Source: an uncultured Acidobacteriota bacterium (lineage in GTDB: Bacteria > Acidobacteriota > Vicinamibacteria > Vicinamibacterales > UBA2999). From it: a stretch of DNA of 35,888 nucleotides. The DNA lies in the NCBI GenBank assembly GCA_902826065.1, contig CADEDM010000030.1, positions 1 to 35,888 on the forward strand, given 5' to 3'. The translations under genes were made by a program, and so were the position numbers. Positions 1 through 554 of this stretch are shown here, in pieces. Positions within the stretch are counted from its first letter, which is position 1. Each line of letters begins with the position of its first letter. The notes beneath the pieces are model-generated. The model saw only the letters and a list, made by a program, of their open reading frames with translations. It ran no database searches and was not told where the DNA came from.

Positions 1-314
1 GTCACTTCGGTGTTGAAGCAGGTGCGGGCGCCGGTGTGGCACACGTTGCCGTCGCCTTCGCGGGCAGCCTTCACGAGCACCGTGTCGTCGTCGCAGTCGA
101 CCAGCAGCTGCTTCACCGCCAGGCGGTTGCCCGAGGTCTCGCCCTTGGTCCACAGCGTGTTGCGCGTGCGGCTGTAGAACGTGACGTAGCCGAGGCGCTT
201 CGTGATGGCCCAGGCCTCGTCGTTCATGAAGCCCACCATCAGCACCTCGCCGCTCTCGTGGTCCTGCACCACGGCGGGCACCAGGCCGTCCAGCTTGCTG
301 AAATCCAGGGTCAT
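1..314 (-). CDS. hisI: Phosphoribosyl-AMP cyclohydrolase, 3' end cut by window edge
   Basis: Opens the adenine ring of phosphoribosyl-AMP in histidine biosynthesis (cytosol, Zn and Mg dependent). About 104 residues are visible. Family signatures seen in order: LVPAVVQDHESGEVLMVGFM near residues 11-30, YVTFYSRTRNTLW at about 47-59, KGETSGN, then DCDDDT, and the Zn-binding VCHTGARTCF near the end. HisI is normally about 110-130 residues, so only the extreme C-terminus is missing. The ATG is preceded by GAAGGA (322-327) at good spacing. It lies downstream of a complete histidine attenuator (384-554), which independently supports the assignment. Any genes that follow it in the operon are outside the window. 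There is no HisE domain upstream, so this is the cyclohydrolase half alone unless a HisE domain follows. Confidence 0.95.
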   Translation of the reverse strand, partial: MTLDFSKLDGLVPAVVQDHESGEVLMVGFMNDEAWAITKRLGYVTFYSRTRNTLWTKGETSGNRLAVKQLLVDCDDDTVLVKAAREGDGNVCHTGARTCFNTEV

Positions 315-372
315 CGGTCGTTCCTTCGTCTCGGTCGTTCCAGGAATCCGTCCGGGCTCCGCGGGGCGCGCA

Positions 373-404
373 CAAACAAAAAACCCCGCCGGATTCCGGC
401 GGGG
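373..404 (-). terminator. Intrinsic terminator of the his attenuator
   Basis: On the minus strand, CCCCGCCGG and CCGGCGGGG form a perfect 9-bp stem around a 3-nt loop (384-404). It is followed at once by six T, a G and three T (373-383). It sits 70 nt before the hisI ATG and 40 nt after the stop of a His-rich leader peptide, so it most likely works as the regulated terminator of an attenuator. It could also catch readthrough from the kinase gene upstream. Confidence 0.93.
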
Positions 405-476
405 CTGCTCAGGTTCGTGCTGTGAACGCTGATTCGTGTGTCGCTACACGTGCAGTCCGGCCGGCCCGAAGGCGGC
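396..476 (-). promoter_or_regulatory. Alternative RNA pairings of the his attenuator (UUCG hairpin and antiterminator)
   Basis: Two competing structures can be drawn by hand. Just after the His codons, GCCGCC-UUCG-GGC(C)GGC (476-460) forms a hairpin with a UUCG tetraloop and one bulged C. Its 3' side overlaps CCGGCCGGACTG (464-453), which can instead pair with CAGCCCCGCCGG (407-396) in 10 of 12 positions. That second pairing uses up the left arm of the terminator. A ribosome stalled on the His codons would block the UUCG hairpin and favour this antiterminator. A ribosome reaching the stop codon (446-444) would cover 464-453 and let the terminator form. The pairing is seen in the sequence; the switching logic is inferred from classical his attenuation. 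Confidence 0.72.
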
Positions 477-515
477 ATGGTGATGGACGTGATGCACGTG
501 GTGGCGGAGGAACAC
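444..515 (-). CDS. hisL: Histidine leader peptide (attenuator), 23 residues
   Basis: A short reading frame GTG...TAG encodes a 23-residue peptide whose residues 4-12 read HHVHHVHHH, with an eighth His two residues before the end. Seven His in nine codons is the hallmark of a his operon leader whose translation senses charged tRNA-His. It lies between a promoter (525-554) and a U-tract terminator (373-404), directly upstream of hisI. No Shine-Dalgarno sequence precedes the GTG. The GTG begins 9 nt after the -10 hexamer, so the transcript probably starts at or within a few bases of it, making this a leaderless leader peptide. Other in-frame upstream starts (GTG at 560, TTG at 554) lie in or before the promoter and are unlikely. 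Confidence 0.85.
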   Translation of the reverse strand: MFLRHHVHHVHHHAAFGPAGLHV

Positions 516-524
516 GACTTCGAG

Positions 525-554
525 AGCGTAGCCGAAGCCGCGCCCGGCTGACAA
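525..554 (-). promoter_or_regulatory. Probable promoter of hisL-hisI
   Basis: TTGTCA (554-549) and TACGCT (530-525) are spaced 18 bp apart, a reasonable housekeeping sigma match. The promoter begins 8 bp after the stop of the kinase gene, and the predicted transcription start falls at the leader GTG. Confidence 0.65.

Follow-up and report, generated by a model that had tools for sequence, protein, structure and literature searches.

Comparative evidence for a ribosome-mediated, apparently leaderless histidine attenuator in front of hisI in Vicinamibacterales

What controls a histidine biosynthesis operon whose first gene is preceded by a short His-rich open reading frame (ORF), a promoter close to its start codon and a terminator hairpin? 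This arrangement is found in the contig studied here (35,888 nt from an uncultured Acidobacteriota bacterium; the window in the following), where it occupies the gap separating the end of a kinase-TPR gene at 562 from the start of hisI at 314 on the same strand. A preliminary description had proposed a ribosome-mediated his attenuator. Comparative evidence, i.e., leader ORFs, terminators, promoters and antiterminator covariation, supports this reading in an apparently leaderless form, and we consider it highly probable that translation of the His-rich leader peptide governs transcription attenuation of the his operon at this locus. The features of the window are listed in Table 1.

Table 1. 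Features of the putative his attenuator and its surroundings (positions within the window).
Feature	Position	Strand	Details and basis
-35 box TTGTCA	549..554	-	sequence; equivalent box 17-18 nt 5' of the -10 box in 88/94 relatives
-10 box TACGCT	525..530	-	18-nt spacer from -35; ends 9 nt upstream of the leader GTG
Leader ORF VFLRHHVHHVHHHAAFGPAGLHV	444..515	-	23 codons; GTG start 515-513, TAG stop 446-444
His-codon run HHVHHVHHH	477..503	-	seven His codons = sensor codons; includes segment 1
Segment 1	485..500	-	500-493 with 454-447 and 488-485 with 458-455 (1:2 helix); RNA fold
UUCG hairpin	460..476	-	tip of the 1:2 helix; RNA fold
Segment 2, antiterminator 5' strand CCGGCCGGACTG	453..464	-	duplex energies, family alignment
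Segment 3, antiterminator 3' strand and terminator 5' arm CAGCCCCGCCGG	396..407	-	duplexes, alignment
Terminator hairpin	384..404	-	9 G-C pairs, loop AAT; terminator search, family alignment
Terminator arms CCCCGCCGG and CCGGCGGGG	404-396 and 392-384	-	sequence
Terminator U6 tract	378..383	-	sequence, terminator search
AAGGAA, Shine-Dalgarno-like site of hisI	321..326	-	read from sequence
hisI (phosphoribosyl-AMP cyclohydrolase)	1..314	-	ATG 314-312; cut by contig end; NCBIfam

Most parts of the initial proposal were recovered in the window at their original coordinates. This holds for the TTGTCA-N18-TACGCT promoter, for the 23-residue peptide with its HHVHHVHHH run (GTG 515 to TAG 446-444) and for the 9-bp terminator with its U6 tract (404-384 and 383-378), which is the single terminator detected within 200-900 (0.1 expected in shuffles). 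It also holds for the antiterminator, in which 10/12 positions are paired between 464-453 and 407-396. The leader RNA fold beats 200/200 shuffles (z -4.1). In the best fold of the window leader RNA, the His-codon region is linked to the antiterminator strand by a 1:2 helix that had not been listed before; the UUCG hairpin described right after the His codons is present but forms merely the tip of this helix. Given the segment 1 helix, all classical pairings (1:2, 2:3 and 3:4) are available.

Relatives of hisI were drawn from whole genomes and GTDB species contigs, which yielded 103 distinct upstream regions. A His-rich ORF is found 5' of hisI in 95 of these regions and is accompanied by a U-tract terminator in 91/103. 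The leader peptides show on average 6.4 His per ~25 residues, encoded by a mixture of codons (CAC 328, CAT 280), and are variable apart from His. Among the 8 regions without a His-rich ORF, five belong to other phyla (Bacteroidota, Desulfobacterota, Chloroflexi), one extends just 102 nt upstream and the remaining two come from Acidobacteriota (L063, L106); for the hisI of L063, no His-rich ORF was found within 450 nt upstream. Nearly all Vicinamibacterales with sufficient upstream sequence retain both the His run and the terminator. Relatives that keep hisI without one of the two had been named as a refuting observation, and the outcome is favourable with L063, L059, L064 and L091 as exceptions. 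The same-genus relatives resemble the window up to the promoter, where the similarity stops and thereby excludes the upstream kinase gene, i.e., the attenuator unit travels with hisI and not with the upstream gene.

We also built a covariance model of the leader from 39 leaders. It matches 70/100 genomes of the order and one place in the source genome. The matches compared, i.e., those from genomes with known hisI coordinates, sit just 5' of hisI on the same strand, and six of 7 tested genomes without a hisI match show no model match below 0.01. A weak match in G031, which has no hisI match either, covers a terminator without an adjacent His ORF or his gene and was judged a false positive; model matches weaker than ~1e-4 are thus doubtful. 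With regard to the wider phylum, a His-rich ORF precedes hisI in 14/14 members sampled from a distant family (f23), again with a -10 box near the start codon in those members whose promoter was read. Five sampled genomes of other families show no His-rich ORF 5' of hisI, and in at least two of these five hisI lies directly behind an apparent hisF.

To assess the start of the transcript, we searched for TTGnnn-N17/18-TAnnnT at any distance within 80 nt 5' of each leader ORF. Such a promoter precedes 88/94 leader ORFs, compared to 0.85 expected in shuffles, and the distance from the end of its -10 box to the start codon is 7-12 nt in 86/94 leaders with a mode of 9. The choice of start codons in this count had drawn on the promoter score; in a recount using the ATG/GTG closest to the His codons, which is promoter-independent, the peak at 9-10 nt persists. 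The window promoter itself scores under the sigma-70 threshold of the promoter tool, and its position is nevertheless conserved in the relatives. Since a -10-to-start-codon distance of about 10 nt serves as a criterion for genome-wide calls of leaderless genes, which are estimated at 13.3% in three Acidobacteria (PMC3160421), the observed spacing predicts that the his leader mRNAs are leaderless or nearly so. This agrees, as a prediction, with the original leaderless reading, and a leaderless transcript would leave no room for a Shine-Dalgarno sequence in front of the leader ORF. A second promoter may lie further upstream, such that the leader of a genuine attenuator would be translated from an ordinary 5' UTR. 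We consider this unlikely given the narrow spacing in 86/94 leaders, the end of the similarity at the promoter and the mostly weak Shine-Dalgarno matches found 5' of the leader ORFs of the relatives.

Control might also act on hisI translation, i.e., by sequestering of its ribosome site instead of transcription termination. Attenuators that act on translation have been described (PMC9413887), and L059, L064 and L091 show a His ORF and a terminator-like stem with no U-tract by our search rule. Against this, a hairpin plus U-tract well apart from hisI is present in the window as well as in 90 other leaders, which renders translational control quite improbable. In the three leaders mentioned, the terminator-like stem is followed by a second hairpin 5' of hisI, and L059 and L064 show visible complementarity to the AAGGAC region immediately 5' of hisI. 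Possibly, these three leaders have switched from transcriptional to translational control.

The RNA pairings were evaluated across the family. The terminator shows 93% of its alignment cells paired. For the antiterminator, 82% of the cells are paired compared to 27-47% when slid by 1-3 columns, and its duplex with the own partner reaches -27.8 kcal/mol, against -24.5 for a swapped one and -21.9 for a shuffled segment 2. Conserved His codons and compensatory changes upstream of hisI had been suggested as a check of the attenuator; the comparison with relatives provides both, i.e., His codons in the 95/103 regions and, in the family alignment, double changes at six antiterminator pairs. That is, the antiterminator pairing, which is exclusive with the terminator, is conserved by covariation. 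The 1:2 helix is paired in 78% of the cells in relatives, with a covariation barely above shuffles. Synonymous recoding weakens the antiterminator in 63/91 leaders as a set; for the window leader taken alone, no weakening is observed. An elemental-pause motif (GG-N6/7-TGYG) near the ORF end was found in 43/95 leaders only and was dropped.

The His-rich peptide could itself be active, e.g., via metal binding or in trans as reported for the leader peptide peTrpL of Sinorhizobium meliloti (PMC7298713), but its non-His residues vary widely while the codons at its 3' end track the RNA pairing, such that we regard this as very improbable. The idea that the terminator, which lies downstream of the kinase-TPR gene on the same strand, just ends that gene and that the His-rich ORF is a chance product of GC-rich DNA has next to no probability and was rejected, since about 90 genomes share the His run, the promoter, its spacing and the terminator 5' of hisI and the similarity to relatives ends without reaching the kinase gene.

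To investigate the switching of the ribosome-mediated attenuator, we masked the RNA by a ribosome and assessed the pairing of segment 3 with the region 5' of the stop codon, using RNA truncated before the terminator 3' arm. For the window, the antiterminator pairing is 0.03 for free RNA, 0.23 with the ribosome at the stop codon and 0.72 with the ribosome at the His codons. The respective means over 91 leaders are 0.43, 0.32 and 0.79, and the expected direction of change is observed in 77/91 leaders. The proposed block over the His codons hence has the anticipated effect in truncated RNA, i.e., a change from 0.03 to 0.72, while for the full-length window RNA at equilibrium the terminator prevails in every masked state. 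We therefore infer that antitermination is a kinetic and not an equilibrium effect.

The predicted course of events is as follows. RNA polymerase would start at the leader GTG or within a few nt, and a ribosome would load on the new RNA 5' end by leaderless initiation. Given ample His-tRNA, it would get to the stop codon and cover part of segment 2, such that segment 3 would pair with segment 4 and transcription would end at the U-tract. When His-tRNA is scarce, a ribosome stalled in the His run would open the 1:2 helix and free segment 2, which would pair with segment 3 before the terminator 3' arm exists, and hisIGDCBHF would be transcribed. If the leader is not translated, segment 2 would be held by the 1:2 helix, i.e., termination is predicted for the window sequence.

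The genes downstream fit the sensed amino acid, as hisIGDCBHF makes histidine. hisG, hisD, hisC, hisB, hisH and hisF are found in that order on contig C261 (NCBIfam), the end of which carries the last hisI codons, so that C261 appears to continue the window contig. Judged from these sequences, hisI appears to head a hisIGDCBHF operon; a genome of the same genus shows the identical his gene order on one contig. The best hisA candidate is located on another contig. For hisE, just one weak sub-threshold match and no confident one was obtained in the source genome, and the gene is probably located outside hisIGDCBHF. A split or rearranged his pathway had been suspected. The hisI-first order and the location of hisA are in accordance with that, but hisI is not isolated: it heads a seven-gene operon and thus the attenuator occupies its usual place. 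We therefore regard the his operon as rearranged, headed by hisI, and not as broken up.

Further leaders were observed in relatives. A Trp-rich short ORF (e.g., ...SYWWWYRTATEGAASV) followed by a GC hairpin and usually a T-run was seen in 12/12 relatives examined, two of which belong to the genus of the window. These loci (L190 and L192-L202, e.g., L194, L195, L196 and L199) are found 5' of the trpE match at a distance of 1.2-1.9 kb and likely represent a trp attenuator. Where visible, a -10-like box is found ~20-26 nt before the start of the Trp ORF, i.e., the trp leader is not leaderless-looking. Leaders 5' of ilvB showed nothing consistent in relatives. Only L213 harbors an Ile/Ser-rich short ORF ~260 nt upstream of its ilvB match; the ATG follows a -10 box at a distance of 10 nt, and a terminator comes after the ORF. 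It is absent from other ilvB loci and could be a branched-chain leader.

The locus is best read as ribosome-mediated his attenuation of the classical kind in an apparently leaderless variant, and we found no report of such a variant from Acidobacteriota. The preliminary description had named no case from this phylum, and our full-text literature search, with its thin coverage of subscription papers that leaves priority unproven, likewise returned no his attenuator of Acidobacteriota. The enterobacterial his attenuator (hisL; Rfam RF00514 His_leader) shares the leader rich in His codons, the 2:3 and 3:4 pairings, a 1:2 pairing that is predicted here from the fold, and the terminator before the his operon. 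In contrast to it, the present leader is predicted to be leaderless, the operon is hisI-first and not hisG-first, and the phylum is another one. A search against Rfam, RF00514 included, left both the window and 20 relatives unmatched, with no match at E<=10 in 300-620 either. His leader peptides occur in Proteobacteria and some Firmicutes (PMC9413887; PMC2965389). The Firmicutes attenuators, likewise not covered by RF00514, combine a His-rich leader with a terminator/antiterminator in front of his genes or hisS/hisZ; they are reported from a few lineages, and leaderless leaders go unmentioned in the sections consulted of these two sources. The attenuator described here, in contrast, belongs to another phylum and spans one order plus a distant family of it. 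The closest leaderless counterparts are the polycysteine attenuators of mycobacteria (Canestrari et al. 2020, via PMC9031893 and PMC13236596) and candidate leaderless polycysteine short ORFs of the same group (PMC4633059). There, too, runs of a single codon tie downstream expression to the respective amino acid, which is cysteine in Actinobacteria and histidine in the present system; the likeness refers to the descriptions in the citing papers and not to structures.

Leaderless his attenuation may be an old trait of Acidobacteriota, comprising at least Vicinamibacterales and a distant family, with ribosome loading at the 5' end as part of the timing between ribosome and RNA polymerase; we put this forward tentatively, as a serious possibility that falls somewhat short of an even chance. 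Leaderless translation and ribosome-mediated attenuation, which are usually studied separately, would meet in the his leader, which makes it a simple and conserved system for the question of how a 5'-loaded ribosome keeps up with RNA polymerase.
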